A stretch of DNA of 50,699 bases, taken from NCBI GenBank assembly GCA_016178945.1, contig JACOSH010000212.1, positions 1 through 50,699 on the forward strand, given 5' to 3'. Under the pieces are notes generated by a model that was not told where the DNA came from, ran no database searches, and saw only the letters and a list, made by a program, of their open reading frames with translations. Of the stretch, positions 24,216-50,699 are shown piece after piece. How positions within the stretch are numbered: position 1 is the stretch's first letter; each line of letters begins with the position of its first letter. Made by a program: the position numbers and the translations under genes. This DNA is from Acidobacteriota bacterium. Its GTDB lineage: Bacteria > Acidobacteriota > Terriglobia > Bryobacterales > Bryobacteraceae.

Positions 24216-27110
<2,895 letters not shown>

Positions 27111-28511
27111 ATGGAACCGGACCAGACACAGATCGAGCCGCTCACGCTGGGCGAGCAGAGGCGCGCCGAGCTGGTGGGACCGGGCCATTCCTTTGCCACC
27201 GTCACCGACAAGATCAGCTCGATCGTGCTGACGCGCAAGACCACGCTGGGCTTCCTGGGGGCGTTTACGGTGGCGTTCGGCTTGGCCATGATGCTTTTCT
27301 ACACCCTGGCCTACGTAGTGGTGGTGGGCGTGGGAGCCTTCGGCGTCAACGTGCCGGTGGGCTGGGGATTCGACATCATCAATTTCGTGTGGTGGATCGG
27401 CATCGGGCACGCGGGCACGCTGATTTCGGCGATCCTGCTCCTGTTGCGGCAGCAGTGGCGCACGTCGATCAACCGTTTCGCCGAGGCCATGACGCTGTTC
27501 GCGGTGGCCTGCGCGGCGCTGTATCCGATCATGCACACGGGCCGCCCCTGGCTGGCGATCTATTGGCTCTTCCCCTATCCCAACACGATGGGGCTGTGGC
27601 CGCAGTTCCGCAGCCCGCTCATCTGGGACGTCTTTGCCGTGTCGACCTACGCCACCGTGTCGGCGCTGTTCTGGTTCGTGGGCCTGATTCCGGACCTGGC
27701 CACGCTGCGCGACCGGGCCACCGCGAGATTCGCCCGGTTCGCCTACGGAATGCTGGCCATGGGCTGGCGCGGCTCGGCCATGCATTGGCACCGCTATGAG
27801 ACCGCGTCGCTGCTGCTGGCCGGGCTGGCCACGCCGCTGGTGGTGTCGGTCCACACCATCGTCAGTTTCGACTTCGCGGTCTCGGTGCTTCCCGGATGGC
27901 ACGCCACCATCTTTCCGCCCTACTTCGTCGCCGGCGCCATTTATTCCGGTTTCGCCATGGTGATGACGCTGGCCATCCCGCTGCGCGTGGTCTACGGCCT
28001 GGAAGACTTCATCACCCTGCGCCACTTGCAGAACATGGCCAAGATTATCCTGGCGACCGGACTGATCGTGGCCTACGGCTACATGATGGAAGCGTTCACG
28101 GCCTGGTACAGCGGCAACGAGTACGAGCGGTTCATGATCCTCAACCGCCTGAAGGGGCCGTACGCGGTGATGTACTGGGCGCTGATCGCCTGCAACGTCA
28201 TTGCGCCGCAGATCCTGTGGTTCGGGAAGCTGCGCCGGAACGTCGCGCTGCTGTTCGCGATGTCGCTGGTGGTGAACGTGGGCATGTGGCTGGAGCGCTA
28301 CGTCATCATCGTCACCAGCCTGCACCGCGACTTTCTGCCGTCTTCCTGGGGCCTGTATTCCGGCTCGAAGTGGGACTGGTCGATGTACATCGGGACCATC
28401 GGGCTGTTCCTGACGCTGCTGTTCCTGTTCATCCGCTTCCTGCCGATGATCTCGATCTTCGAGATGCGCACCATTCTGCCTCAGGCCGAGGTCAAAGAGG
28501 AGGGACAGTGA
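27111..28511 (+). CDS. actC: Alternative Complex III subunit ActC (NrfD family)
   Basis: 466 aa polytopic; FVWWIGIGHAGTLISAILLL; synteny. Confidence 0.94.
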   Translation: MEPDQTQIEPLTLGEQRRAELVGPGHSFATVTDKISSIVLTRKTTLGFLGAFTVAFGLAMMLFYTLAYVVVVGVGAFGVNVPVGWGFDIINFVWWIGIGHAGTLISAILLLLRQQWRTSINRFAEAMTLFAVACAALYPIMHTGRPWLAIYWLFPYPNTMGLWPQFRSPLIWDVFAVSTYATVSALFWFVGLIPDLATLRDRATARFARFAYGMLAMGWRGSAMHWHRYETASLLLAGLATPLVVSVHTIVSFDFAVSVLPGWHATIFPPYFVAGAIYSGFAMVMTLAIPLRVVYGLEDFITLRHLQNMAKIILATGLIVAYGYMMEAFTAWYSGNEYERFMILNRLKGPYAVMYWALIACNVIAPQILWFGKLRRNVALLFAMSLVVNVGMWLERYVIIVTSLHRDFLPSSWGLYSGSKWDWSMYIGTIGLFLTLLFLFIRFLPMISIFEMRTILPQAEVKEEGQ

Positions 28512-29059
28512 AGCTCAAGCGCGGGCCACAACACTCCATCTACGGCCTGATGGCGGAGTTCGACAATCCCTCCGCGCTGGTGGCGGCGGCGCGCAAGGCG
28601 CGGGAGGCCGGCTACAAGAAGATGGATGCATACTCACCCTACCCGATTGAAGAACTGGTCGAAGCGCTGGGACAGCATCACGACCGTTTGTCGCTGCTGG
28701 TGCTGATGGGCGGCCTGTTGGGGCTGGGGGCCGGTCTGACGCTGGAATACTGGGCCGCGGTGATCGCCTACCCAATGAACGTGGGCGGGCGGCCGCTGGC
28801 GAGCTGGCCGGCCTTCATCCCGCCGGCCTTTGAGACGACCATCCTGTTCGCGGCGCTCGCCGCCGTCCTGGGGATGCTGGGCCTGAACGGGCTGCCCATG
28901 CCCTACCATCCGGTGTTCAACGTCGAACGGTTCGCGCTGGCGTCGCGCAACCGGTTTTTCCTGTGCATCGAGTCGCGGGATCCGCTGTTTGACCGGGAGA
29001 AAACCGTGACGTTTCTGGAAACCCTGGAGCCGCGCGAGGTGGCGGAAGTTGCGTACTAG
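28508..29059 (+). CDS. actD: Alternative Complex III subunit ActD (DUF3341)
   Basis: IYGLMAEFDNPSALVAAARKAREAGYKKMDAYSPYPIEEL; two TM helices; GTG start; synteny. Confidence 0.93.
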   Translation: MKLKRGPQHSIYGLMAEFDNPSALVAAARKAREAGYKKMDAYSPYPIEELVEALGQHHDRLSLLVLMGGLLGLGAGLTLEYWAAVIAYPMNVGGRPLASWPAFIPPAFETTILFAALAAVLGMLGLNGLPMPYHPVFNVERFALASRNRFFLCIESRDPLFDREKTVTFLETLEPREVAEVAY

Positions 29060-29618
29060 AGCGAGGGCAATTCCGGTGGTGGGTCTGGTCCTGTTGGCCG
29101 GGGCCTGCCGCCAGGATATGCACGATCAACCGAAATACGAGCCGCTGGAGGCGAGCAAGTTCTTTGCCGACCGGCGGGCGTCGCGGCCGCTGGTGGCCGG
29201 GACGGTGGCGCGCGGCCACCTGCGGGAAGATGTCCACTTCTACACCGGCAAATCCGGGGACCAGGATGTGACCACTTTTCCCTTCGCCGTGACCCGGGAG
29301 GTGATCGAGCGCGGCCAGGGGCGGTACAACGTCTATTGCCGGCCGTGTCACGACCCGACCGGCTACGGGCTGGGAATGGTGGTGCGGCGCGGGCTGCGGC
29401 GTCCGCCCTCGTTCCACATCGACCGGCTGCGGGAAGCTCCAGTGGGACATTTCTACGACGTGATGACCAACGGCTTCGGGCTGATGCCCGACTACGCCGC
29501 GCAGATTCCGGCGCGGGATCGGTGGGCGATTATCGCCTACATCCGGGTGCTCCAGCGCAGCCAGTATGCCACGATCGAGGATGTGCCCGCGGACAAGCGC
29601 GCGGAGGTGAAGAAGTGA
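29049..29618 (+). CDS. actE: Alternative Complex III subunit ActE, monoheme cytochrome c lipoprotein
   Basis: Lipobox-like VGLVLLAGAC; YNVYCRPCHDPTGYGLGM heme motif; FGLMPDY. Confidence 0.92.
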   Translation: MRTRARAIPVVGLVLLAGACRQDMHDQPKYEPLEASKFFADRRASRPLVAGTVARGHLREDVHFYTGKSGDQDVTTFPFAVTREVIERGQGRYNVYCRPCHDPTGYGLGMVVRRGLRRPPSFHIDRLREAPVGHFYDVMTNGFGLMPDYAAQIPARDRWAIIAYIRVLQRSQYATIEDVPADKRAEVKK

Positions 29619-30805
29619 CCCACGCCACTTCATCTGAAATGCTGGCTCGCATCGATGGCCTGCGGCAGCGCGCGCTGATTGCGGGCGCCGGGGCCCTGGT
29701 CCTGTGCGGCCTCGGCGCGTTCGTGAATCCGGACCAGTTTTTCCGCTCCTACCTGATCGCGTTCGTGCTCTGGAATGGCGTGGCCCTGGGCTCGCTGGCG
29801 ATCAAGATGCTGCACCAGATGACCGGCGGGGCGTGGGGACTGGTGATCGGGCGCCTGCTGGAGGCGGCGTCGCGCACCTTTCCGTACACGCTGCTGCTGT
29901 TTCTCCCGCTGGTGTTCGGGACCAAGAGCCTGTATATCTGGTCGCACCCGGAAGTTGTGGGCGCGGATCAGGCGCTGCGCGACAAAGCCCCTTACCTCAA
30001 CACGACCTTTTTCCTGGCTCGCGCCGCCTTCTACTTCGCGGTCTGGAACGGGCTGGCCTACTTCCTCAGCAAGTGGTCGCGCGAGCAGGATGAGGGCGGC
30101 GCCGAACCGTATCACACCCGGCTCCAGGTGCTCAGCGGTCCGGGACTGCTGCTGTACGGTTTTACCGTGACCTTCTCGTCGATCGATTGGGTGATGTCGC
30201 TCGACCCGCACTATTCCTCGACCATTTACGGCATCCTGTTCATGGGCGGCCAGGGCGTTTCGGCGCTGGCGCTGGTGATTACGATCGTTGTGGTGCTGGG
30301 CGATCACGAGCCGCTCAAGAGCGCGATCACCTCCCGGCACCTGCACGACCTGGGCAAGCTGTTGTTTGCCTTCATCATGCTGTGGGCCTACTTTTCGTTC
30401 TCGCAGTACCTCATCACCTGGTCGGCGAACCTGCCGGAGGAGATCCCCTTCTACCTGAAGCGGACCCAGGGCGGCTGGCAATTCATCGCCGTGGCCCTGC
30501 TGGTGGGCCACTTTGTACTGCCGTTCGCGCTGCTGCTGTCGCGCGGGACCAAGCAGAACCGCCGCCTGGTGCTCGGAGTGGCGCTGTTCCTGTTGTTCAT
30601 GCGCCTGGTGGACATCTATTTCCTGGCCGGACCTTCGGGGCACGGCGAAGGCCCGGCGGCCTTGCACTTGCACTGGATGGACCTGGCCGCGCCGGTAGCG
30701 GTGGGCGGCTTGTGGCTGGCGGCGTTTTTCTGGCAGTTGAAGCAGCGGCCGCTATTGCCGGCCCACGATCCCATGCTGGAGGAGGCGCTCGAACATGGAC
30801 GTTAA
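29615..30805 (+). CDS. actF: Alternative Complex III subunit ActF
   Basis: Polytopic; SIDWVMSLDPHYSSTIYGILFMGGQ; SQYLITWSANLPEEIPFYLKR; GTG start; synteny. Confidence 0.93.
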   Translation: MTHATSSEMLARIDGLRQRALIAGAGALVLCGLGAFVNPDQFFRSYLIAFVLWNGVALGSLAIKMLHQMTGGAWGLVIGRLLEAASRTFPYTLLLFLPLVFGTKSLYIWSHPEVVGADQALRDKAPYLNTTFFLARAAFYFAVWNGLAYFLSKWSREQDEGGAEPYHTRLQVLSGPGLLLYGFTVTFSSIDWVMSLDPHYSSTIYGILFMGGQGVSALALVITIVVVLGDHEPLKSAITSRHLHDLGKLLFAFIMLWAYFSFSQYLITWSANLPEEIPFYLKRTQGGWQFIAVALLVGHFVLPFALLLSRGTKQNRRLVLGVALFLLFMRLVDIYFLAGPSGHGEGPAALHLHWMDLAAPVAVGGLWLAAFFWQLKQRPLLPAHDPMLEEALEHGR

Positions 30806-31187
30806 GACTCCCCCGCATGGCGGTCACGAGGCGAGCGACGTCAATGTGCGCTCGGTCAGCCGGTTCACGATCGGCCTGACGCTGGTCACCATCTTCGTCC
30901 TGGGGCTGATGTGGCTGGTGATGGACTTCTTCCTCGGGCGCGAGGCCGCGCGCAGTCCCAAGCCGGCTCCGATGATCGCGGCCGATCCGTTGAAAGAGCC
31001 ACCCGAGCCGCGGCTGCAGACCAAGCCGGCGCTGGATCTCCAGAAGGTTCGCGAGGACGAAGAGGCGCTGCTCCATCAGTACGGCTGGGTGGACCCGGAC
31101 AAGGGCATCGTGCGAATTCCGGTGGAGCGGGCGATGGAGCTGGTGGCCAAAGAAGGACTGCCGGTCCGGCCGGGAGGTGGGAAATGA
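30795..31187 (+). CDS. Single-TM protein of the ACIII-caa3 cluster, function unknown
   Basis: 130 aa; one TM (FTIGLTLVTIFVLGLMWLVMDFFL) and periplasmic tail LLHQYGWVDPDKGIVRIPVERAMELVAKEGLPVR; overlaps actF and sco. Confidence 0.75.
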   Translation: MDVKTPPHGGHEASDVNVRSVSRFTIGLTLVTIFVLGLMWLVMDFFLGREAARSPKPAPMIAADPLKEPPEPRLQTKPALDLQKVREDEEALLHQYGWVDPDKGIVRIPVERAMELVAKEGLPVRPGGGK

Positions 31188-32011
31188 AAATGCTTCTGCT
31201 GGCTGTGGCAGGACTGGCGTCCGCGCAGAACTTCATGCGCCAGCCCGTGGGCCGGCCGTCGGCCGATCCGGTGCCGGGTCTGAAGGAGGTCGGCTTCGAC
31301 CAGAAGCTTGACCGCCAGTTGCCGCTGCACCTGATGTTTCGGGACGAGACCGGCCGCTTGGCGGCGCTGGGCGAATACTTCAAGACCCGCCCGGTAATCG
31401 TGGCGCCGGTCTACTACGAGTGCCCGATGCTGTGCTCCCAGATCCTGCAGGGCCTGGTGGCGGGCCTGAAGCCCGTGAATCTGGATGCGGGCAAGGACTT
31501 CGAAGTGCTGGCGGTCAGCTTCGATCCGTCGGAGACGCCGGCGCAGGCGCTCAGGAAGAAGGAAATGTACGCCGCCCGCTATAAACGGCCCGCGGGCGAA
31601 ACCGGTTTTCACTTCCTGACCGGGGATGCGGCGTCGATCCAGGCATTGATGGCCGCGATGGGCTTCCGCTACACCTTCGATCCTAAGACCCGGCAGTTCG
31701 CTCACGCCAGCGGCGTTCTGGTGGCGACCCCGCAAGGCCGGATCTCCCGCTATCTGTACGGCGTGGAATACGCACCAAGGGATCTGCGGCTGGGTCTGGT
31801 AGAGGCTTCCCGCAACCAGATCGGATCGGCCGTCGACCAGTTGTTGCTCTACTGCTATCACTACGATCCGGCTACGGGAAAGTACACGGCCGCGGCGATG
31901 AATATTCTGCGCCTGGCGGCGCTGGCGACGCTGGTGGCGTTAGGCGGCTTTGTCATTGCGATGCTGCGCCGTGACAGGATCCGGCGCATCGACCTGATGA
32001 GTGGAGTCTAA
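31184..32011 (+). CDS. SCO1/SenC-family copper chaperone with C-terminal TM
   Basis: APVYYECPMLCSQILQG (CxxxC), RQFAHASGVLV, C-terminal LRLAALATLVALGGFVIAMLRR. Confidence 0.9.
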   Translation: MKMLLLAVAGLASAQNFMRQPVGRPSADPVPGLKEVGFDQKLDRQLPLHLMFRDETGRLAALGEYFKTRPVIVAPVYYECPMLCSQILQGLVAGLKPVNLDAGKDFEVLAVSFDPSETPAQALRKKEMYAARYKRPAGETGFHFLTGDAASIQALMAAMGFRYTFDPKTRQFAHASGVLVATPQGRISRYLYGVEYAPRDLRLGLVEASRNQIGSAVDQLLLYCYHYDPATGKYTAAAMNILRLAALATLVALGGFVIAMLRRDRIRRIDLMSGV

Positions 32012-32976
32012 TGGGTTCCCGACTGCCTTTATTCCCGGAGCAGGGCTCGGCGCTGGCCGGCGAAGTGGACACGTTCTACTTTTTCATGCTGGCCGTGAGC
32101 GCGTTCTTTTCCGTGCTCATCGCCGGGCTGGTCATCTATTTCGCGGTCCGCTACCGCCGGCGTTCCGAGAACCAGCGCGGCGAGGCGATCCACGGGGGAA
32201 TGACGCTGGAAATCGCCTGGATGGTGATTCCGTTTTTTTTGACGATGATCATGTTCTTCTGGAGCGCCAAGCTCTTCGTCCGGATCAGCCGTCCGCCCGA
32301 CGATGCCATGGAGATCTACGCTGTCGGCAAGCAGTGGATGTGGAAGCTGCAGCACAAGGAGGGCCAGCGGGAGATCAATGAGCTGCATATCCCGCTGGGC
32401 CAGGCGGTCCGGCTGAAAATGACCTCCGAGGACGTGATCCACAGCTTCTACGTACCGGTGTTTCGAACCAAGATGGATGTGCTTCCCGGCCGCTACACCA
32501 CCACCTGGTTCAAGCCCACTAAGACCGGCAAGTTTCACCTGTTCTGCGCCGAGTACTGCGGCACCAAGCACTCCGGGATGATCGGGTGGGTTCATGTCAT
32601 GGAGCCGAACGAATACCAGGCCTGGCTGGCGGGCGGCGCCGAAGAGGGGACGCTGGCCACGCGAGGCAGCAAGCTGTTCCAGGACCTGGCGTGCATCAAC
32701 TGCCATCGCCCCGATGGCAAGGGGCGCGGGCCCAGCCTGGAAGGGCTGTTCGGGGACCGGATCGATCTGGAAGACGGGGAAAAGGCGGTGGTGGACGAAG
32801 GCTATCTTCGCGAGTCCATCCTGAGCCCGCAGGCCAGGCTGGCCAAAGGCTATCCGCCGATCATGCCGACCTTCCAGGGGCTGGTCACGGAAGATCAGCT
32901 CCTGCAGTTGATCGAGTACATCAAGAACACGGAGAAGAAGACCAAACCCGGGGCTGCGCCCGCGGCCAAACGGTAA
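32011..32976 (+). CDS. coxB: Cytochrome c oxidase subunit II, caa3-type with fused cytochrome c domain
   Basis: [50 protein letters not shown] (CuA); [16 protein letters not shown]. Confidence 0.95.
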
Positions 32977-32980
32977 ACGT

Positions 32981-34603
32981 ATGATCACGGCACGCGAAGA
33001 GAAGCTGAATTATCTGACGGCCGACTACGGCGTGAAGTCGTGGCTGCTGACCGTCGACCACAAGCGGATCGCCCTGCTCTACCTGGCCACGATCACCCTG
33101 TTCTTCTTTCTGGGCGGCGCTTTCGCGGTCCTGATCCGGCTGGAGCTGCTGACGCCGGCCGGCGACCTGGTGCAGTCCCAGACCTACAACAAGCTGTTCA
33201 CGATGCACGGCGTGATCATGGTGTTCTTCTTCCTGATCCCGGCGGTGCCCGCCGTGCTGGGGAATTTTCTGGTGCCCCTGATGATCGGAGCGCGCGACCT
33301 GGCCTTCCCGCGACTGAACCTGGCGAGTTGGTACATTTTCGTGATCGGCGGGACGTTATCGATCCTGGCCGCCATCCTGGGCGGCGTGGACACGGGCTGG
33401 ACGTTCTACACGCCCTACTCGAGCACGTACTCCAACACGTACGTCATGATCACGGCGGTGGGCATTTTCATCACCGGCTTCGCCTCCATCCTGACCGGGT
33501 TGAACTTCATCGTCACGATCCATCGCATGCGCGCGCCCGGGCTGACCTGGTTCCGCATGCCGCTGTTCATCTGGGCCAACTATGCGGCCAGCCTCATCAT
33601 GGTGCTGGGGACGCCGGTGGTGGCCGTCACCATCCTGCTGGTGGGGGTCGAGCGAGCCTTCGGGCTGTGCATCTTTAATCCCAACTGCGGCGGCGACCCG
33701 GTGTTGTTCCAGCACCTGTTCTGGTTCTACTCGCACCCGGCGGTCTACATCATGATCCTGCCGACCATGGGCGTGATCAGCGAGCTGGTGGCGGCCTGCA
33801 CCCGCAAGCAGATCTTCGGCTACAAGCTGGTGGCCATGGCCAGCGTCGCCATCGCGGTGCTGGGCTTTCTGGTGTGGGGTCATCACCTGTTTGTCAGCGG
33901 TCAATCCGTGTACGCCGGTCTGGTCTTTTCGTTCCTGAGCTACGCGGTGGGCATCCCGTCCGCGGTCAAGGTTTTCAACTGGACCGCGACGCTCTACAAG
34001 GGCGCCAACACCTATCAAACGCCGATGCTCTATGCCTTCGGTTTCATCGGGCTGTTTACCATCGGCGGTTTGACCGGCTTGATGCTGGCCGCCACGGGTC
34101 TGGACGTGCACGTGCACGACACCTACTTCGTGGTGGCCCATTTCCACTACATCATGGTGGGCGGCGCGATCATGGGCTACCTGGGCGGGATGCACTTCTG
34201 GTGGCCGAAGATGACCGGTCGCATGTATCCCGAGCTGCCGGCCAAGCTGTCGGCGCTGGTGATTTTTGTCGGATTCAACCTGACCTTCTTCCCCCAGTTC
34301 CTGCTGGGCTACCTGGGTATGCCGCGGCGCTATCACGCTTATCCGGAGGAGTTCCAGGTCCTGAACGTGATGTCGACGGCCGGGGCCTCGGTGCTGGCCT
34401 TCGGCTACGCTCTGCCGATGTTCTACTTCGTGTGGTCGCTGCGGTACGGCCAAAGAGTAGGCAACAACCCGTGGGGCGCGAAGGGATTGGAGTGGCTAAC
34501 TTCGTCGCCGCCGCCGACTCACAACTTCGACGTCACTCCGATCGTGACCGAGCCCGCCTATGCCTACGCCGCCGAGGAGGGAGCCGAAATTGTCCACACC
34601 TAG
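32981..34603 (+). CDS. coxA: Cytochrome c oxidase subunit I (A2-type heme-copper oxidase)
   Basis: 540 aa; [47 protein letters not shown]; YSHPxVY motif. Confidence 0.96.
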
Positions 34604-35273
34604 CGCCGAGCACCCCGGACATCCGGCCGCGCTCCTGCACCATTTCGACACCGCCGAGCAGCAGAAGGACGCCTCCACACTGGGGATGTGGCTGTTCCTC
34701 ATCACCGAGATCATGTTCTTCGGCGGGATGTTCACCGCCTACGTGGCCGGACGCTTCCGCTTCCACGAAGCGTTCAAAGAGGCCAGCAACACGCTCGACG
34801 TCACGCTGGGCGCGATCAACACCACGGTGCTCATCTGCAGCAGCCTCACCATGGCGCTGGCCGTGCACGCCGCGCAGGTGGGCAAGAAGAAGCAGATCGT
34901 CTGGTTTCTGCTGGCGACCATCCTGCTGGGGTGCACCTTCCTGGGCGTGAAAGTGGTGGAGTATCACGACAAGTTCGTCCATCACCACGTGCCGGGCCTG
35001 CACTTCCACTTCCCCGGCCCGAATGCCCGCAATGCCGAGATGTTCTTCTCGATTTACTTCGGCATGACGGGCCTGCACGCGCTGCACATGGTGGTGGGCG
35101 TGGGGCTGCTGGCGGTGCTGGCCGTTCGAGCCGGCAAGGGCTGGTTCACGCCGGACTACTACACGCCGGTCGAGATGACCGGGCTCTACTGGCACTTCGT
35201 CGACATCGTCTGGATCTTCCTGTTCCCCCTGCTTTACCTGCTGGGGGCGCACTTCGCAATCACGGGGCACTAG
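34590..35273 (+). CDS. coxC: Cytochrome c oxidase subunit III
   Basis: [67 protein letters not shown] at 34590 preceded by GGAGG, longer in-frame ATG at 34560 possible. Confidence 0.92.
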
Positions 35274-39814: not shown

Positions 39815-40384
39815 TCAGTGTTCGTGCAGGCACTCCGGAAACTGGGCCAGCACCGTGTTTCCGGCGTAGCCCAGCTCCTCGACCAGGCCGGTCCGCGAGG
39901 TGTAGTACCCGTCGGCGGTCATGTTCTTGACCACGCGGAAAAAGTGTTCTGGCGCCGTTCGGGCGCGGCGGGCGTCGACCGCCTGGCTGAGCGGCGCCAG
40001 CAATTCGGTCTGGCGCTCTTCAGTGAGCCTGACGAATCGTTTTCCAAAGCGCTTCTTCGACTCCCGGTCGAGCCAGCGCAGCCCCGCCCGGAAGCGCGTG
40101 CGGTGCTCGGCATTGGCGCTGACCACCTGGTCGATATACCGGGGCACGCCCGCCCCAACCGCGCCCGGCGTTCCGGTCGGAGGGATGATCAGGTCGGCCA
40201 GCCGCGAGAGGGCTTGGTATTCGGCTTTCTTGAAGAACATCGGCTGGAAGGGCTCTTCGGGGACGGCAGGCGGGCGGCTGGGAGGATGCGCATGCTGGCC
40301 GTACAGCTCGTCGGCGGCAAACGGGAAGGCGCAGGTGGCGCCGATCGCGCCGATGATCTTGAGGGACTCCCGCCGGCTCTCCAT
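39815..40384 (-). CDS. Gluconate 2-dehydrogenase subunit 3 / GMC oxidoreductase gamma subunit-like
   Basis: MESRRESLKIIGAIGATCAFPFAADELYGQ signal; ALSRLADLIIPPTGTPGAVGAGVPRYIDQVV. Confidence 0.9.
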   Translation of the reverse strand: MESRRESLKIIGAIGATCAFPFAADELYGQHAHPPSRPPAVPEEPFQPMFFKKAEYQALSRLADLIIPPTGTPGAVGAGVPRYIDQVVSANAEHRTRFRAGLRWLDRESKKRFGKRFVRLTEERQTELLAPLSQAVDARRARTAPEHFFRVVKNMTADGYYTSRTGLVEELGYAGNTVLAQFPECLHEH

Positions 40385-41947
40385 TTACATCTCTCCTTTC
40401 CGCAGCCGGTCCGCGATGTGATCGGCGGCGCGAGCGGCCAGCGCCATCATGGTGTGGGTCGGGTTTTTCTCCGATGCCGACGGGAAGACGCTGCCATCGA
40501 CCACGTAGAGGTTGGGCACGTCGTGGGTGCGGCAGCCGGCGTTCACCACCGACGTGCGAGGGTCCGTTCCCATCCGGCAGCCGCCCAGCTCGTGGTTGGT
40601 GCTCGGCTCGGCGGATACGGACTGGATTTCGGCGCCGGCCGAGCGTAGGATCTCGACCGACCAGCGCGTCATGTCATGGAAAATCTTCCGGTCGTTCTCG
40701 CCCCAGACGTACTGCCGGCGGGCCAGCGGCAGGCCGAACCGGTCCCGTTTGCCGTAATCCAGGTCGATATAGCTCTGTTTGTTGGGCAGCATCTCGCCGT
40801 ACGGCGAAAAGGTCAGGAAGGCCGGATAGCGCTCCTTGATCGACTGCTTGTAGGCCTTGCCAAACCCAGGCATCGCGCGCGCCCAGCCGACCGACCGCCG
40901 GTTCTGGTAGTTGAACTGGATACCGAAACTCCGGGCGTAATCCCGCTTGCGCTGGTGCATGAAGGAGGGCACGTAGGCGTGATCCAGAAAGCCCTCGTCG
41001 TTGGCCGCCGGTTTGCCGATCAACTCCGTCAGGAAACACTGCACCCCGCCGGTGAAGTGCGGGATGAAGTTGCGGCCCAGCTCGCCGCTGGAGTTGGCCA
41101 GCCCGCTGGGATAGCGCGAGGACTTCGACATCAGCAGCAGCGCCACGCTCTGCACGCAGGCGCACGACACCACCACGCAGCGGGCGCGCAGCTCGCCCTC
41201 CGCCAGCGTCTCGCGGTGGAGGAAACGCGCGCCGGTCGCGCGGTTCTCTTCGCTGACGATTACTTCCCGCACCACCGAGTTGGGAAAGACTTCGAGCTTG
41301 CCGGTTTTCAGCGCGGGCTTCAGGTGCACATCGGCGGAATTGTACTTGGCCACCACGTCGCAGCCGGCCATGCAGTTGCCGCAGAAATGGCAGGCCGGGC
41401 GCGCGCCCCGCGCCACCGAGAGCGTCGACTTGCGGACGTGGATGACGTTGATTCCGAGCTTGGCCGCGCCGCGCTGCACGATCTTGTCGCTGCACTTCAT
41501 GGGCACGGGCGGCAGGAAGATGCCGTCGGGGAGGTCGGGAAGACCGTCCCGGTTGCCGCACACGCCGACCTCGCGTTCCACCTGGTCGTAATAGGGGGCC
41601 AGATCCGGGTAATCGATGGGCCAGTCTTCGCCCGCGCCATCGATCGAGCGGCCTTTGAAATCGCGATGGCTATAGCGCCAGGCCACTGCATTCCAGGTGA
41701 GGCTCTTGCCGCCGACGCCGCGGCTGCGCTCGCTGTCGAACCCCGGCACACCGGGCTTCATGGTCGGGATGTGGCGGTTGGGAAAGTCGAAGGGCATGGC
41801 GTGCGTATTGAACGCCGTGCGCGTGTCCACGACCGGGCCGCCTTCCACGACGGCGACGTCGACCCCGAGATGCGCCAGGTGCGCCGCCAGCGTGCCGCCG
41901 GAGGGACCCGAACCGGCCACCAGCACGTCGTAGATTTTCTGAGGCAT
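40385..41947 (-). CDS. GMC family oxidoreductase (FAD-dependent dehydrogenase alpha subunit)
   Basis: DVLVAGSGPSGGTLAAHLAHLGVDVAVVEGG; CHFCGNCMAGCD; STNHELGGCRMGTDPRTSVVNAGCRTHDVPNLYVVDGSVFPSASEKNPTHTMMALAARAADHI. Confidence 0.94.
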   Translation of the reverse strand: MPQKIYDVLVAGSGPSGGTLAAHLAHLGVDVAVVEGGPVVDTRTAFNTHAMPFDFPNRHIPTMKPGVPGFDSERSRGVGGKSLTWNAVAWRYSHRDFKGRSIDGAGEDWPIDYPDLAPYYDQVEREVGVCGNRDGLPDLPDGIFLPPVPMKCSDKIVQRGAAKLGINVIHVRKSTLSVARGARPACHFCGNCMAGCDVVAKYNSADVHLKPALKTGKLEVFPNSVVREVIVSEENRATGARFLHRETLAEGELRARCVVVSCACVQSVALLLMSKSSRYPSGLANSSGELGRNFIPHFTGGVQCFLTELIGKPAANDEGFLDHAYVPSFMHQRKRDYARSFGIQFNYQNRRSVGWARAMPGFGKAYKQSIKERYPAFLTFSPYGEMLPNKQSYIDLDYGKRDRFGLPLARRQYVWGENDRKIFHDMTRWSVEILRSAGAEIQSVSAEPSTNHELGGCRMGTDPRTSVVNAGCRTHDVPNLYVVDGSVFPSASEKNPTHTMMALAARAADHIADRLRKGEM

Positions 41948-43684: not shown

Positions 43685-44589
43685 AGCGACGCCCCCGTCT
43701 CGTGCACGAAGACGTCCTCCAGGGTCGGCTTGTGCAGCGCCACGGACTCGATGAGGCCGGGAAAGGCCTCGACCACTTCGGTGATGAAGCGGTGTCCGTT
43801 GGCGATCTCGATGCGCAGCGTGGCATCGACCGTCGAGGGCTGGACGTGAAAGCGGGCGGCGATTTGCGGGCCCAGCGTGGCGGGCTGGGCCGTTTCCAGC
43901 ACTACGACGTCGCCGCCGATTCGCGCCTTGAGTTGCGCCGGAGTGCCCTCGGCCACCACCCGGCCCGCGTGCAACAGCAGCAGGCGGTCGCAGCGCTCGG
44001 CCTCATCGAGGATGTGGCTGGTGAGCAGGATGGTCACGCCTTCGCGGTCGCGCAGCTCGCTCACGTACTGCGACAGCTCGCGGCGGGCGCCGGGGTCGAG
44101 GCCCGTCGACGCTTCGTCCATCAGCAGCAGGACGGGCCGATGCAGCAGACCCTTGGCGATCTCGACCCTCCGCTTGAGGCCGCCGGAGAGCGTTTCCACC
44201 AGGTCGCCGGCCCGCGACGCGATGCCCAGCCGCCCGGTGACCTCGCCGATCCTCTGGCGCAGCGCGCTGCCCGAGAGGCCGTGCAGATGACCTTGCGCGC
44301 GCAGGTTCTCGGCGACCGTCATCTTCTTGTCCAGGCTCTGCGATTGAAAGACCACGCCAATCCGGCGGCGGACATTCTCCGGAGACCGGTCCACATCGTG
44401 TCCGGCCACAACCGCCCGTCCCCCGGAAGGCGCCATCAACGTCGACAGAATGCGAAACAGCGTCGACTTGCCGCCGCCGTTAGGACCGAGCAAACCGAAG
44501 ATCTCGCCTTCCCTCACCTGGAAGGTCACGCCGGCGAGCGCCACGCGTTCGCCGTAACGATGGCTCAGATTGTCGACGGTGACGATCAC
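43678..44589 (-). CDS. ABC transporter ATP-binding protein
   Basis: GLLGPNGGGKSTLFRIL, LSGGLKRRVEIAKGLLHRPVLLLMDEASTGLDP; GTG start; overlaps permease. Confidence 0.94.
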   Translation of the reverse strand: MIVTVDNLSHRYGERVALAGVTFQVREGEIFGLLGPNGGGKSTLFRILSTLMAPSGGRAVVAGHDVDRSPENVRRRIGVVFQSQSLDKKMTVAENLRAQGHLHGLSGSALRQRIGEVTGRLGIASRAGDLVETLSGGLKRRVEIAKGLLHRPVLLLMDEASTGLDPGARRELSQYVSELRDREGVTILLTSHILDEAERCDRLLLLHAGRVVAEGTPAQLKARIGGDVVVLETAQPATLGPQIAARFHVQPSTVDATLRIEIANGHRFITEVVEAFPGLIESVALHKPTLEDVFVHETGASLW

Positions 44590-45437
44590 AGGGCCGGGCG
44601 GTCCAGCAGCATCAGCCCGTAAATCATCGGAAGATACACCACCGAAGCGAGCAGGACGCCGCGGGCCCGCAGGATCGTGCGGTCGAACACCACACGCAGG
44701 CCATAGTAAAGATAGAGCAGCCCCAGTCCCAACGCGCCGAATAAGTAGAGCTTGCCTGTCATCCCCAGCAGGCTCGGCGCGATACTCACCGGGATCAGGG
44801 CCAACGAATAGAGGACGATCTGGCGGGCCGTGGATTGGCCGCTGGGCTCGACCACCGGCAGCATGAGGATGCCGGCGCGGGCGTAATCTTCGCGATACAT
44901 CCAAGCGATGGCCAGGAAGTGCGGGAACTGCCACAGAAACAGGATCGCGAACAGCACCCAGGCCTCCGCGGTCAGAGCGCCGCGCGCGGCGGCGAATCCG
45001 ATCATGGGGGGCATCGCCCCGGGGAAAGCGCCCACCAGCGTCGACAGGTGCGTGCGCTGTTTCAGCGGGGTGTAGAGGAACAAGTAACTGGTGAGCGTGA
45101 ACAGTCCCAGCAGCCCGGTCAGCAGATTGAGGCCGATCGCCAGCTCGGCGAAACCGAGCGCCGACAGCGCGGACCCGAAGGCCAGCGCGCGGCCCGGAGT
45201 GACGCGCCCGGTCGGGAGAGGCCGCCTGGCCGTTCGCCGCATCTTGGCGTCGGCTTCGCGCTCGTACCATTGGTTGAGCGCGGCCGTGCCGGATGCGATC
45301 AGCGCGGTGCCGAGCACCGTATGGAGAATCGGCAGGAGTAACCAGCCGCCCTGGTGCCCGAAAAAGTAGCCGACCGCCGCACTCATGAGGATGAGCCAGG
45401 TGACGTTGGGCTTGGTGAGCTCGATGTAATCCTTCAT
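44586..45437 (-). CDS. ctaB: Protoheme IX farnesyltransferase (heme O synthase)
   Basis: YIELTKPNVTWLILMSAAVGYF; AALNQWYEREADAKMRRTARRPLPTGRVTP. Confidence 0.95.
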   Translation of the reverse strand: MKDYIELTKPNVTWLILMSAAVGYFFGHQGGWLLLPILHTVLGTALIASGTAALNQWYEREADAKMRRTARRPLPTGRVTPGRALAFGSALSALGFAELAIGLNLLTGLLGLFTLTSYLFLYTPLKQRTHLSTLVGAFPGAMPPMIGFAAARGALTAEAWVLFAILFLWQFPHFLAIAWMYREDYARAGILMLPVVEPSGQSTARQIVLYSLALIPVSIAPSLLGMTGKLYLFGALGLGLLYLYYGLRVVFDRTILRARGVLLASVVYLPMIYGLMLLDRPAL

Positions 45438-46318
45438 GAGTTGGCCGGAAGCGCTTCCGGAATCGTGGGACAGGCCGATACCCGTCCGGCATAACGAAAA
45501 ACCTGGATCCCAGTTAGGATACTACAGGCCAGAGTCATCGCGCCAAGGGCGACATGCGCGGAGGTGAAGACGACCATCACTTTCATGGGTTGCGGCGCGT
45601 CCACGGTGGCGATCCGGCTCATGTACGCCGCGATCCCCAGGAAGACCTGCGCGAAGGTGATCGTGACCAGCGCCAGCGCCGGAGTGCGCAACTGGCCGTG
45701 GCCGGAGTGGCGCATCAGAATCCGGGTGACCAGCCACAACACCATCCCCGTGGTCACCGGCGCCCAGGCGATATGCGCCAGCGCGCCCAGCGCTTTGTGC
45801 CGCGCCGCCGCGCCCAGCGCCAGTTGGATGAACACGGAAACCGGCGCGGCCAGCGCCAGCCGGTGCAGCCCGGGATCTTCCACATTGGGGCCGCCGCGCC
45901 GCCAGGCCGGAGAGGTGAACCAGGCGATGGCCACTGTGGTCGAAAAGAATAACTCGGCCAGACAGGCGTGGCCGATGCTGACCGGTTTGGGCTGCAGGAG
46001 GAGCACCGTGATTCCGCCGAGCAGGCCCTGCGCCACCACCGCGCCTAACGCGCTCCAGCCCAGAATGCGCAGCCAGGGGCGCGTCTCCACGCGCGCGATC
46101 CACACCGCCAGGATGAGGGTAAGAAAACCGACCGTGGTGGCCACCATGCGGTGGCCGTGCTCCCAGAAGATGCCGCCCTCCATCTTGGGCATGAGCTGGC
46201 CATAGGAAAGCGGCCAATCGGGAACAGAGAGCCCCGCGTCGTTGCTGGTGACCAACGCGCCGGCTACCACCAGGAGCAGCGTCGAACAGGCGACCAGCAC
46301 CGAGAACCGGTGTAGCAT
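45434..46318 (-). CDS. ctaA: Heme A synthase (COX15/CtaA family)
   Basis: LVVAGALVTSNDAGLSVPDWPLSYGQLMPKMEGGIFWEHGHRMVATTVGFLTL; overlaps ctaB start. Confidence 0.92.
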   Translation of the reverse strand: MLHRFSVLVACSTLLLVVAGALVTSNDAGLSVPDWPLSYGQLMPKMEGGIFWEHGHRMVATTVGFLTLILAVWIARVETRPWLRILGWSALGAVVAQGLLGGITVLLLQPKPVSIGHACLAELFFSTTVAIAWFTSPAWRRGGPNVEDPGLHRLALAAPVSVFIQLALGAAARHKALGALAHIAWAPVTTGMVLWLVTRILMRHSGHGQLRTPALALVTITFAQVFLGIAAYMSRIATVDAPQPMKVMVVFTSAHVALGAMTLACSILTGIQVFRYAGRVSACPTIPEALPANS

Positions 46319-46360: not shown

Positions 46361-47134
46361 CTACCCTTTGAACTCGAAGTCGACCGCCTTGGACTCCTTG
46401 GCCTCGACTTTCACTTTCTGCTCCATCGCGCCGTACTTCTCGTGCCAGGCCTCGATGGTGTACTCGCCCGGTGGCAGCCCTTTCAGGGTGAATGCGCCGT
46501 CCTCGCCGGTCACGGCGAAGAACGGATGGTTCACCACTCCGATGTAGCTCTTCATCCAGGGGTGCACGTTGCACTTCACCGGGATCATGACCTCCTCGCG
46601 CGCGAACTGCTTGATCTTCTTGTCGCCCTTGGGAGGCTGGGATTCGTTCCACTCGCGATTCACTTTCGGCAGCGGGTGGATGTTATGGTTGGTCGGATCG
46701 CTGTTGGTGACCTCGATGTCCTGCCCCGCGCGCACGCCGAGCATGTGGGGCCTGTACATGCAGCCCGACTGGTCGAGCGCGACCGTGTTGGACGCGGCGG
46801 GCCACTGCCGATCGGGCAATCCCGCCTTCACCCAAACGAACGTGTAGCGCAGCGTGCCGTTGTCGTTGACCACCGCTTCCTCGGACTTCTGCGGAGTGGA
46901 ATGCGCCCGCGCGCAAGCCGGCGTGGCTTCCATGCTGATGGTCTTGGCCGTGGGCTTGGCCCCGCTGAAGGCGACCTTGCCCGTAACGGTAGCCGCGTTA
47001 GCGTCATCGACCGGCGCCGCCGCCGGAGCCGCGGCCGGTGCTTCCGCTTTCTTCTCTTCCTTCTTTTCCCCGCCTCCGCAGCCGTTCAACATCAGGGCCG
47101 CGGCGACTCCCAAACTAATCCAGAACTTCTTCAT
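46361..47134 (-). CDS. Cupredoxin-like lipoprotein with carboxypeptidase-regulatory-like segment
   Basis: Lipobox LMLNGC; TNHNIH and CNVHPWM candidate copper ligands; GEDGAFTLKGLPPGEYTIEAWHEKYG. Confidence 0.75.
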   Translation of the reverse strand: MKKFWISLGVAAALMLNGCGGGEKKEEKKAEAPAAAPAAAPVDDANAATVTGKVAFSGAKPTAKTISMEATPACARAHSTPQKSEEAVVNDNGTLRYTFVWVKAGLPDRQWPAASNTVALDQSGCMYRPHMLGVRAGQDIEVTNSDPTNHNIHPLPKVNREWNESQPPKGDKKIKQFAREEVMIPVKCNVHPWMKSYIGVVNHPFFAVTGEDGAFTLKGLPPGEYTIEAWHEKYGAMEQKVKVEAKESKAVDFEFKG

Positions 47135-47161: not shown

Positions 47162-50100
47162 TCACCGGCCGGCTCCCGCGCCGGCGCTGGCGCGCAGACG
47201 GTTGAGCTCCTCCGGCGTGAACTGGAACATGTAGCGGACCAGCAAGTCCGCGTGATCCTTCTTGTAGCCCTCGAAACTGGCGGGCGTGGGGCCGGCGAAT
47301 ACCCAGCGGTCGCCTTGCTTGGCAAACAGGCCCGAGGGCATGGCCGTGCCCGGGGCCATGCGCGCCGGATCCAGCATCCAGCGTTTGGTCCAACCGGGCT
47401 TCAACCTCTCCTTGGCGAAGAGAAAATTAGGCGCCGTGGCCCGCTTGTCGCGGTTCGGATCGCCGGTGGCGTGACACTTCAGACAAGGCGCTCCTTCGCT
47501 CGAAAACAGGGCCCGGGCCATGGAACGCTCTTGCTCGCTCAGCGGATCCAGCTTCTGCGCGATATACGGCTGCGCCTGCGACGAGAGCGCTTCGAAGAAC
47601 CGGACCAGCTTCCGCAGCTCTCCGTCGGAGAAGTGGAAGGTCGGCATCCGCACCTTCAGGTATTGTCGCACACCGTTGCGGTCCTGATCCTTCTCCGACA
47701 GCGATGGGTTGTTCAGGAAGCGCATCAGCCAGACCGGATCGACGCGCGCGCCCTCGCCCACCAGGCTCGGCGGCCGCTGCTCCTTCCAGTCAGGATCCTG
47801 GTAACGGGGCAGGACCTCGAACAACGTGTTCTGTCCCACGCGCACGCGGTGGCACCCCATGCAGTTGTACTTGCGTACGATCCACCAGCCCTCGACGATG
47901 TCCTGGCGCTGGTCGCTGGGCGCGTAATGATAGCGGGCCGGGATGTTCGGCTCCACCGAACCCAGCAGGAAGGTCGCGACGGCGTCAATCTCCTCCTTGC
48001 CGAGATTGAAGTTGGGCATCTTCAGCCGCTCCAGCTTGTTGGGCTTCTCCTTGCCCTCGTCGTACACGGCCGGGTCCTTCAGCTTGTGCTCGAAGAAGCC
48101 CTTGTGCGTGTACCAGCCCTCTTTCTCGGCCTTGTGGCCGAGCAGCGCGAAGTCCAGGCGCTCGATCGGTTTGGACCCTTCCCGGGTCAGCTCCGTGCCG
48201 ATGCGCTGTTCCTCCTCCAGTCCCGCGATCTCGTGGCAGGCGGCGCACCCGTAGTTCTTTACCAGGAACAAACCGCGGGGCTTCAGCTTGGGATCTTCCA
48301 GAAAATCGGCCGAGGCGTAAGATTCATCCCTCGTGCGGGTCATCAGGTAGCTGGCGATGTTGCGGGCCTCTTCCGTGGTCAGCCGCAGGCTGGGCATGGG
48401 GGTCATGTTCTCCACCACCAGCTCATGGCCGCCAATGGGAGACTGGGAGTGCTCGACGTCGAACACGAACGGCACGCCCGCCTTCTTGTAATCTTCTTCG
48501 GAGAGATCGCGCTTCTCGATCGGATCGTAGGGAAGCGTGCGCTCGCGCGGATTGTGCACCCAGCGCACCAGGTAATCGTAGTTGACCTTCTCGCCGACGC
48601 GGCTCAGATTGGCGGCGAACGTCCCGCCCTGCTTCTGGCCGCCCTCGCCCATGGAGTGGCAGGCCATGCAGCCGCGCGTCTCGAAGGACTCCTTGCCCTT
48701 CTCCGGATCGCCCTTGGCTTGTGGGGCCAGCTTGCCGGTCACGCCCGACTGCCAGACGAACGCGGCGATGGCGCGGACTTCGTCTTTATCCAGCCGGAAG
48801 GTGGGCATCTTGGTCCCGGCTCGCCAGTGGTTGGGATTCTCGATCCAGACCGGCAGCCATTCCTTGCGCAGCTTCATCCGGACTTCCTTGAGGTTCGGTC
48901 CGACCTTCTTGATCTCCCGCAGCAGGTTCTTGGACCGCATGTCGAGCTGCTCGATCCGGGCGTCCAGGCCCGAGGACCGGACCTTCAGATTCTCGGCCAG
49001 CGCATACAGCCGCTGCGCTTCGCTGTTGTCCTTGGTCTTGTCGGCCTTGGCGATGCTGAATCCCGACTCGCGCTCCCACTCCGCCTTCTGGGACTCGTGC
49101 TGCCGGATCTGCTGGTAAACGCCGTCCAACTCGTCCTTCTCCCGGTCGTAGCCCTCATAGCGGTGGCAGCCGCGGCAGCCCCGGTTGCGGAAGATCTCCC
49201 GGCCCTCGTTCAGGCGGTCGGCCATCTCGGTGACCACTTCCCGGTAATGGCACTGCTGGCAGCCCGCCTCGAAGTTCTCGCGGTAGTGCATCGGCCACAG
49301 CCAGTATTTATGGCGCCCGTGGCCCTTTTCCTCGCTGGACGTGGCGATGCCGTTCCCACCGTGACAGGGGCTGCATCCGAACTTTTCCGGATCGTGGATC
49401 TTGAGCAGCTCGCGGTTGGGATGGCTGGTGAACATCCCCTCGCCACCCATGGAAGCCCTGGTCAGCACGACCGGCTCGCGCGCGCCCAGGTGGCAGGACT
49501 CGCAGCGGTCCACCAGGTCGACGTCCCGCACGTGAATCTGGCGGATTCGGATGTCGAAACTCCTCACCTTGTTCTCGAGGCCGTTCAGGACATCCGTGGA
49601 AGCCTCGGCCATCCGGTCGGACAGGTATTGATCGCGCTTGGCGCGCAGCTCGGTGGCCGGCTTGAGCAGGTCCACGCGCTCCTGGAGGCGCTTGGCTTTC
49701 TGGGTCTTCCAGGCGTCCAGGCCGGCCTCCATCCGGGCGTATTGGTACTCGACCTTCTCCTCGGTTCCGTCCGCTTTCGGAAGGTTCACCGTGACCGCGC
49801 GCTGCTTGATCTTCTCGATGTCGGCGCGGATGGAGTTCTTGGCCGCCTCGCCGGAAGCGGTTTCGATCTTGTAGGTCAGGGCGACGATCTCGGCCCGCGA
49901 CTCCTGGAACTTCTCGTTCAGCGCCAGGATGCGCGGCACCAGCGTGAGATTCACCTCGTCGTCGATCGCCTTCACCTTGGCCATCACGGCGCTCTCGGCC
50001 GCTTTCATCTCGCGGTCGAGCCGCTGGTACTCGGAGGTGGCTTTGATCTTCTGCTCGACCTCGGCGCCGGCCGGCTTCTCCTTCTTCAAGAAGGCGGAAT

Positions 50101-50260
50101 ACAGCCTGACAAACCGCGCCTGGTATCGCTTCCAGGGCCGCATGAAATAGATCTCGTCGGCCAGCGCCCAGACCAACGACAGCACCAGCAGCGTCGACCA
50201 GATCACCAGGTGACGGCTGAGGGAGGAATGAACTACTGGATCCTTTTCGGGGTCGGTCAT
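47162..50260 (-). CDS. Membrane-anchored octaheme c-type cytochrome with coiled-coil segments
   Basis: 1032 aa; N-terminal TM; eight CxxCH (CESCH, CSPCH, CQQCH, CRGCH, CMACH, CAACH, CMGCH, CLKCH); repeated MP[TNS] motifs. Confidence 0.9.
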   Translation of the reverse strand: MTDPEKDPVVHSSLSRHLVIWSTLLVLSLVWALADEIYFMRPWKRYQARFVRLYSAFLKKEKPAGAEVEQKIKATSEYQRLDREMKAAESAVMAKVKAIDDEVNLTLVPRILALNEKFQESRAEIVALTYKIETASGEAAKNSIRADIEKIKQRAVTVNLPKADGTEEKVEYQYARMEAGLDAWKTQKAKRLQERVDLLKPATELRAKRDQYLSDRMAEASTDVLNGLENKVRSFDIRIRQIHVRDVDLVDRCESCHLGAREPVVLTRASMGGEGMFTSHPNRELLKIHDPEKFGCSPCHGGNGIATSSEEKGHGRHKYWLWPMHYRENFEAGCQQCHYREVVTEMADRLNEGREIFRNRGCRGCHRYEGYDREKDELDGVYQQIRQHESQKAEWERESGFSIAKADKTKDNSEAQRLYALAENLKVRSSGLDARIEQLDMRSKNLLREIKKVGPNLKEVRMKLRKEWLPVWIENPNHWRAGTKMPTFRLDKDEVRAIAAFVWQSGVTGKLAPQAKGDPEKGKESFETRGCMACHSMGEGGQKQGGTFAANLSRVGEKVNYDYLVRWVHNPRERTLPYDPIEKRDLSEEDYKKAGVPFVFDVEHSQSPIGGHELVVENMTPMPSLRLTTEEARNIASYLMTRTRDESYASADFLEDPKLKPRGLFLVKNYGCAACHEIAGLEEEQRIGTELTREGSKPIERLDFALLGHKAEKEGWYTHKGFFEHKLKDPAVYDEGKEKPNKLERLKMPNFNLGKEEIDAVATFLLGSVEPNIPARYHYAPSDQRQDIVEGWWIVRKYNCMGCHRVRVGQNTLFEVLPRYQDPDWKEQRPPSLVGEGARVDPVWLMRFLNNPSLSEKDQDRNGVRQYLKVRMPTFHFSDGELRKLVRFFEALSSQAQPYIAQKLDPLSEQERSMARALFSSEGAPCLKCHATGDPNRDKRATAPNFLFAKERLKPGWTKRWMLDPARMAPGTAMPSGLFAKQGDRWVFAGPTPASFEGYKKDHADLLVRYMFQFTPEELNRLRASAGAGAGR

Positions 50261-50314: not shown

Positions 50315-50699
50315 TCAGATATTGAACCACGGGCTCACCCAGATGTATTTGATTCGGAACAGCAGGCGCAGCAGGATCTTGATGGGCAGCGCCAGCATGA
50401 TCACCAGGAACACCTGCATGGTGACATACTGCAGCAGGCTCATCCGCTTGTAGATCCTGCGGCTGAACGGCGTCGCGTTGATCAGCTTGTGGACCCCCAA
50501 GGCTGCCGCCACGGCATAGATGCCGGTCACGATGACGCCGAAAATGTTCTTCACCAGACCGCTCTTGATGCCCAGGATGTCCGGCAAGTCGCGGTTGATC
50601 TCGAACACCTGGCGGTTGTGATCCCAGGTCATGCCGGGCCAGAACCACATCCAGCCCGGACCGCGGATCAGCGTTCCGATGACGATCATGGTCACCCAC
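50315..50699 (-). CDS. Cytochrome b-like membrane protein, C-terminal part (truncated by window edge)
   Basis: GTLIRGPGWMWFWPGMTWDHNRQVFEINRDLPDILG...three hydrophobic segments; directly upstream of the octaheme gene. Confidence 0.6.
   Translation of the reverse strand, partial: WVTMIVIGTLIRGPGWMWFWPGMTWDHNRQVFEINRDLPDILGIKSGLVKNIFGVIVTGIYAVAAALGVHKLINATPFSRRIYKRMSLLQYVTMQVFLVIMLALPIKILLRLLFRIKYIWVSPWFNI

Follow-up and report, generated by a model that had tools for sequence, protein, structure and literature searches.

An octaheme cytochrome of Acidobacteriota as the probable c-type subunit of a split-cytochrome-b Rieske complex

The window, that is, the whole 50,699-nucleotide stretch of acidobacterial DNA that was analysed, carries near one end a gene for a 1032-aa octaheme c-type cytochrome. 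It is followed by a cupredoxin gene and two heme A genes and preceded by the remnant of a cytochrome b gene. The genes of this region are:

44586–45437, minus strand: protoheme IX farnesyltransferase ctaB (UbiA; Pfam PF01040)
45434–46318, minus strand: heme A synthase ctaA (COX15; Pfam PF02628)
46361–47134, minus strand: cupredoxin-like lipoprotein with a CNVHPWM copper-site motif, following the octaheme gene
47162–50260, minus strand: octaheme c-type cytochrome (1032 aa), with a predicted triheme head and five class-I domains
50315–50698, minus strand: C-terminal part of a subunit-IV-like cytochrome b (cytbC), 63% identical to cytbC of locus L055

The 1032-aa frame, which the sequence-only reading had proposed with no strand, was confirmed and could be assigned to the minus strand, favoured by its codon-position GC contents (0.63/0.41/0.88). 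A plus-strand ORF of 1457 codons overlaps the gene; it was judged to be a shadow because the minus-strand protein is conserved over its full length in 54 aligned full-length close homologues (52–74% identity). The eight CxxCH motifs match those listed in that reading exactly (starting at residues 253, 296, 334, 362, 531, 672, 800 and 926), and the single N-terminal transmembrane segment was likewise recovered. All 16 cysteines of the protein sit inside CxxCH motifs, and shuffled versions of the sequence contained on average 0.006 such motifs, with a maximum of 1 in 5000 shuffles. The neighbouring cytochrome b gene is also real and is truncated by the contig end. The features of the octaheme protein are as follows:

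50150–50206, minus strand: N-terminal transmembrane helix, residues 19–37 (hydropathy)
49562–50137, minus strand: long helical region, residues 42–233, from the membrane anchor to the heme head (AlphaFold2, pLDDT mostly 75–92)
49490–49504, minus strand: heme 1 motif CESCH, residues 253–257, invariant in homologues
49421–49423, minus strand: H280, predicted distal ligand of a head heme (54/54; invariant in 65 wider relatives)
49394–49396, minus strand: H289, predicted distal ligand of a head heme (54/54; at least 90% in the wider set)
49361–49375, minus strand: heme 2 motif CSPCH, residues 296–300, invariant in homologues
49319–49321, minus strand: H314, predicted distal ligand of a head heme (54/54; at least 90% in the wider set)
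49247–49261, minus strand: heme 3 motif CQQCH, residues 334–338, invariant in homologues
49163–49177, minus strand: heme 4 motif CRGCH, residues 362–366, first class-I domain (motif scan)
48914–49144, minus strand: helical hairpin insert, residues 373–449, between the heme 4 motif and its Met (AlphaFold2)
48806–48808, minus strand: M485, predicted Met ligand of heme 4 (54/54)
48656–48670, minus strand: heme 5 motif CMACH, residues 531–535 (motif scan)
48395–48397, minus strand: M622, predicted Met ligand of heme 5 (54/54)
48233–48247, minus strand: heme 6 motif CAACH, residues 672–676 (motif scan)
48017–48019, minus strand: M748, predicted Met ligand of heme 6 (54/54)
47849–47863, minus strand: heme 7 motif CMGCH, residues 800–804 (motif scan)
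47645–47647, minus strand: M872, predicted Met ligand of heme 7 (54/54)
47471–47485, minus strand: heme 8 motif CLKCH, residues 926–930 (motif scan)
47339–47341, minus strand: M974, predicted Met ligand of heme 8 (54/54)

Outside the heme motifs, exactly eight His or Met residues are invariant in the 54 homologues: H280, H289, H314, M485, M622, M748, M872 and M974. The five Met among them belong to the Met-ligand motifs pointed out earlier. When 65 head sequences from a wider set were compared, H280 remained invariant, and H289, H314 and M485 were conserved in at least 90%. Three invariant His in the head and one Met after each of motifs 4 to 8 support a 3+5 arrangement, and Pfam recognised five Cytochrom_C stretches together with a Cytochrome_C7 match in the head. 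The 3+5 architecture suggested by the sequence-only reading is thus supported, and the protein is predicted from its sequence to carry three bis-His hemes and five His/Met class-I hemes.

The AlphaFold2 model of the full-length protein, built with the full alignment and without hemes, had a mean pLDDT of 77, with low confidence in the heme 2–3 region of the head; a model of the head alone was better (mean pLDDT 82). The hairpin insert scored about 87–93 in the former and about 85–98 in the latter. Foldseek searches with the full-length and head models gave no match below E 0.001, the weak matches being class-I cytochromes and coiled coils, and no entry covering the full length was found in Pfam, NCBIfam or PDB. 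The sequence-only reading had recognised no named family with this build, but octaheme subunits of Rieske/cytochrome b complexes have been reported previously.

The same reading had described the protein as an electron wire beside a cytochrome b gene. The neighbour is as described, but the octaheme gene does not stand isolated: its place in a Rieske/cytochrome b operon is conserved. In 59/59 loci with sufficient sequence upstream, the octaheme gene is preceded on the same strand by genes for a Rieske protein, a b6-like cytochrome b (cytbN) and the subunit-IV-like cytbC. Downstream, a gene for a blue-copper cupredoxin lipoprotein is present in 67 of 71 loci and ctaA/ctaB in 51 of 55; cox1 or other cox genes adjoin the locus in only 16 of 49 long loci. 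At locus L055, Pfam confirmed Rieske, Cytochrome_B, Cytochrom_B_C, COX2 and COX1 domains. In the genome of the window, contig C156 carries the cytbN and Rieske genes at its edge; this cytbN is 85% identical to that of locus L012. The window contig probably joins C156, the operon being split between the two. Contig C316 of the same genome carries an A1-type cox1 gene, the product of which is 70% identical to L055 Cox1.

The Rieske motif CxHxGC...CxCH was found in 62 of 64 linked Rieske sequences, and the four b-heme histidine columns are kept in 62 of 63 cytbN sequences; for the cytbN of the window's genome, two of these four His fall in the contig gap. CytbC of the window is cut by the contig end; its intact relatives have the Pfam domain Cytochrom_B_C and a Qo-type KAPWY motif. 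KAPWY, present in most of the subunit-IV-like proteins, has Pro in place of Glu when compared with the PEWY type, the second residue of which varies with quinone type. In the cupredoxin, H150, H153, C188, H191 and M194 are conserved in 100% of 87 sequences. The cysteine to which heme cN is attached in b6f is replaced by Gly in the cytbN of the window's genome and in 24/24 rows of its clade; the sister clade (10/10) and a second complex of this genome, on contig C213, have Cys at this position. About 16 residues before it, a His of an LHxHP motif in cytbN (e.g. L010 8969–9691) is apparently kept in 62 of 63 sequences. This residue may be the counterpart of the Kuenenia His proposed to bind an extra heme b at the dimer interface.

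A match to the octaheme protein was found in half of the 101 related genomes searched. Relatives within Acidobacteriota have the same triheme head and adjoining Rieske/cytochrome b genes but differ in how many class-I domains they have. Complete frames carried five (n = 5), six (n = 10), seven (n = 2), eight (n = 24) or nine hemes (n = 1), and the spacing between hemes 3 and 4 remained at 24–30 residues across these variants. The nine-heme relative (3+6; L178, 2931–5219) is the longest found. At one five-heme locus, L138, no Rieske/cytochrome b neighbour was recognised within the fetched stretch. Two loci scored as seven-heme, L034 and L099, are probably frameshifted and were rejected as such; in a matching genome (G048), a different open frame encodes the C-terminus. 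On the cytochrome b tree, heme number is distributed by clade, with 9 changes against a mean of 27 after shuffling. The sequence of L195 in this tree was mis-called (35 aa) and its long branch was ignored; without it, support for the large octaheme clade was 99/93. The 80 named loci all bear titles of Acidobacteriota or its groups, or of Bacterium HR08/HR10, save three metagenome-assembled genomes titled as Acidimicrobiia (two) and Bacillota (one), which were taken for mislabels. Since the relatives share a triheme head followed by 2–6 single-heme units, they form a modular and barely studied family, and this series in Acidobacteriota seems to be undescribed.

Taken together, these features suggest that the octaheme protein belongs to a complex III, namely a Rieske complex with a split cytochrome b, in which it would be the c-type subunit that receives electrons and would occupy the position of cytochrome c1 or f (probability about 0.82). 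In favour of this, the triheme head lies beside Rieske/cytochrome b genes in nearly all the wider relatives examined. Against it, the operon is split over two contigs in the window's genome, most long loci have no adjoining cox genes, the Foldseek searches gave no significant match, and eight hemes exceed the needs of complex III chemistry. It is from gene order that we infer the assembly of the octaheme, Rieske and cytochrome b proteins into one complex. In such a complex, a quinol, probably menaquinol, would be oxidised at the site formed by cytochrome b and subunit IV. One electron would pass to the Rieske [2Fe-2S] cluster and from there to a c heme of the octaheme subunit, and the second would be recycled via the two b hemes. 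The octaheme subunit would be held in the membrane by its single N-terminal helix, its heme domains lying in the periplasm, and the bis-His triheme head is the likely docking end, where a heme could be reduced by the Rieske protein. The five His/Met class-I domains would then, given suitable redox potentials and this direction of flow, pass electrons outward to the adjacent type-1 copper lipoprotein as putative acceptor, which in turn could deliver them to an A1-type caa3 oxidase.

This complex is not the only complex III of these bacteria, because alternative complex III (ACIII) occurs in 94 of the 101 related genomes, that of the window included. Replacement of ACIII by the octaheme complex was tested and rejected for the same reason, as the two coexist. 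ActB, NrfD and ActD are not linked to the octaheme operon; the ACIII operon is separate (24216–35273, plus strand). There, genes with Fer4, NrfD, ActD and cytochrome c domains are followed by SCO, a COX2-cytochrome c fusion, COX1 and COX3, so that this region is an ACIII-caa3 superoperon on the same contig as the octaheme gene. With an ACIII that has its own caa3 oxidase, the organism has at least two types of complex III. Further loci were observed in the same genome. Contig C213 (L010, 8474–12878) encodes another complex of the Rieske/split-cytochrome b type, with an octaheme protein of compact 3+5 build and a monoheme cytochrome. Two more Rieske/cytochrome b loci are present at L126 (5323–7449) and L127 (1–3800); one of them has a 708-codon frame matching Rieske and cytbN with two CxxCH motifs, and the other adjoins frames with nine and five CxxCH motifs. 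Because the metagenome-assembled genome CO124 has four cytochrome b loci, its transcript data could not be attributed to the octaheme complex. In the window itself, the region 39815–41947 (minus strand) appears by eye to encode a GMC-type oxidoreductase and a small partner similar to gluconate dehydrogenase subunit 3.

Other roles for so many hemes have to be weighed. The number of hemes and the extended build could also suit a protein that conducts electrons through the periplasm to extracellular acceptors or metals. This is very unlikely, as conserved complex III and heme A genes surround the octaheme gene, the ORF lists consulted show no recognisable porin-cytochrome module nearby, and His/Met class-I domains suggest a high potential. 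The least probable of all is an octaheme enzyme such as hydroxylamine oxidoreductase (HAO), octaheme nitrite reductase (ONR) or octaheme tetrathionate reductase (OTR): eight c-type hemes are shared with these, but the five class-I domains have an invariant Met, and no match to HAO, ONR or OTR was obtained in Pfam, NCBIfam or PDB. Electron bifurcation to NAD(P)H, as proposed for Kustd1480–1485 of Kuenenia, would have the octaheme arm drain the high-potential branch. The Rieske protein is indeed nearest to Kustd1480, for which +335 mV was measured, that of the window's genome keeps the serine of CPCHGS, and both complexes have an octaheme partner. However, the octaheme operons for which ORFs were listed contain no recognisable NAD(P)-oxidoreductase gene, the subunit-IV-like protein ends at 311 aa while the numbering of Kustd1483 reaches at least residue 550, and Gly replaces the heme-cN Cys in each of the 24 close relatives. 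Bifurcation thus appears highly improbable.

It is possible, though we propose it only tentatively, that the complex is a modular complex III, in which a Rieske-fed triheme head with 2–6 class-I domains, their number set by clade, forms an arm of fixed length that delivers directly to the cupredoxin or the oxidase and replaces soluble cytochrome c. Docking of the arm on the caa3 oxidase itself, in an obligate III-IV supercomplex that needs no mobile carrier and in which domain number sets the reach, is a rival reading that we consider rather unlikely. Such docking would fit the co-location of the octaheme gene with ctaA/ctaB and, at some loci, also with cox2-cox1-cox3, the clade-dependent number of class-I domains and the proposal that acidobacterial bc1-caa3 superoperons encode supercomplexes (PMC8407424), but the adjacent cupredoxin seems well suited to act as a carrier and most of the long loci have no cox genes beside them. 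For the octaheme protein itself, the best reading is a real, conserved and unusually large c subunit, of a kind already reported and little studied.

The complex resembles cytochrome b6f and bc1 in its Rieske and cytochrome b cores, and its b6-like part best matches cytochrome b6 structures (E 1e-43). Cytochrome f or c1 carries one heme, whereas the c subunit described here carries eight and has an unrelated scaffold.

In soil, Acidobacteriota are among the most abundant bacteria. Their bc1-caa3 superoperons were described by Trojan et al. in 2021 and proposed to act as supercomplexes (PMC8407424). In these, complex III genes adjoin those of an A1 caa3 oxidase, and the locus type is probably the same as ours, although the complex was named bc1 and the words "multiheme" and "Rieske" are absent from that text (PMC8407424). 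At least in part, the acidobacterial "bc1 complex" of the literature appears to be a complex of the Rieske/cytochrome b type whose arm carries eight hemes. Among open-licence papers, we found no description of the c subunit of these superoperons, nor of an aerobic version lacking both the heme-cN cysteine and the NAD(P)-reductase gene.

Outside this phylum, the Nitrospina genome paper reports an "atypical octaheme" that adjoins a split cytochrome b operon and is shared by Nitrospina gracilis, Kuenenia and Methylomirabilis oxyfera (PMC3578206). Compared by description, the operon of N. gracilis and M. oxyfera likewise has an Fe-S subunit, a split cytochrome b and one octaheme c subunit; a cupredoxin/ctaA/ctaB context is not mentioned in the passages considered here (PMC3578206). 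Among Rieske structures, the closest match comes from Kuenenia stuttgartiensis, for which a 2025 study solved the Rieske proteins and modelled the complexes, among them Kustd1480–1485, with long helices in Kustd1485 (PMC12954380). The Rieske protein of the window's genome shares 65 of 119 residues (55%) with Kustd1480 (9rk3; E 4e-44, 153 bits), the next Rieske structures being 9rk4 (91 bits) and those of b6f (at most 67 bits). Both complexes have a Rieske protein, a b6-like cytochrome b, an enlarged subunit IV and a large membrane-anchored multiheme cytochrome (PMC12954380); heme count and long helices agree with those of Kustd1485 in a comparison by description only. The Kuenenia complex differs in having an NAD(P)-reductase part and heme cN, the heme-cN Cys being Gly here. 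Its authors noted that it is not entirely clear why so many hemes are needed, a question left open by their study (PMC12954380), and the varying number of class-I domains on a single conserved head gives a natural series in which to ask why such complexes carry them.
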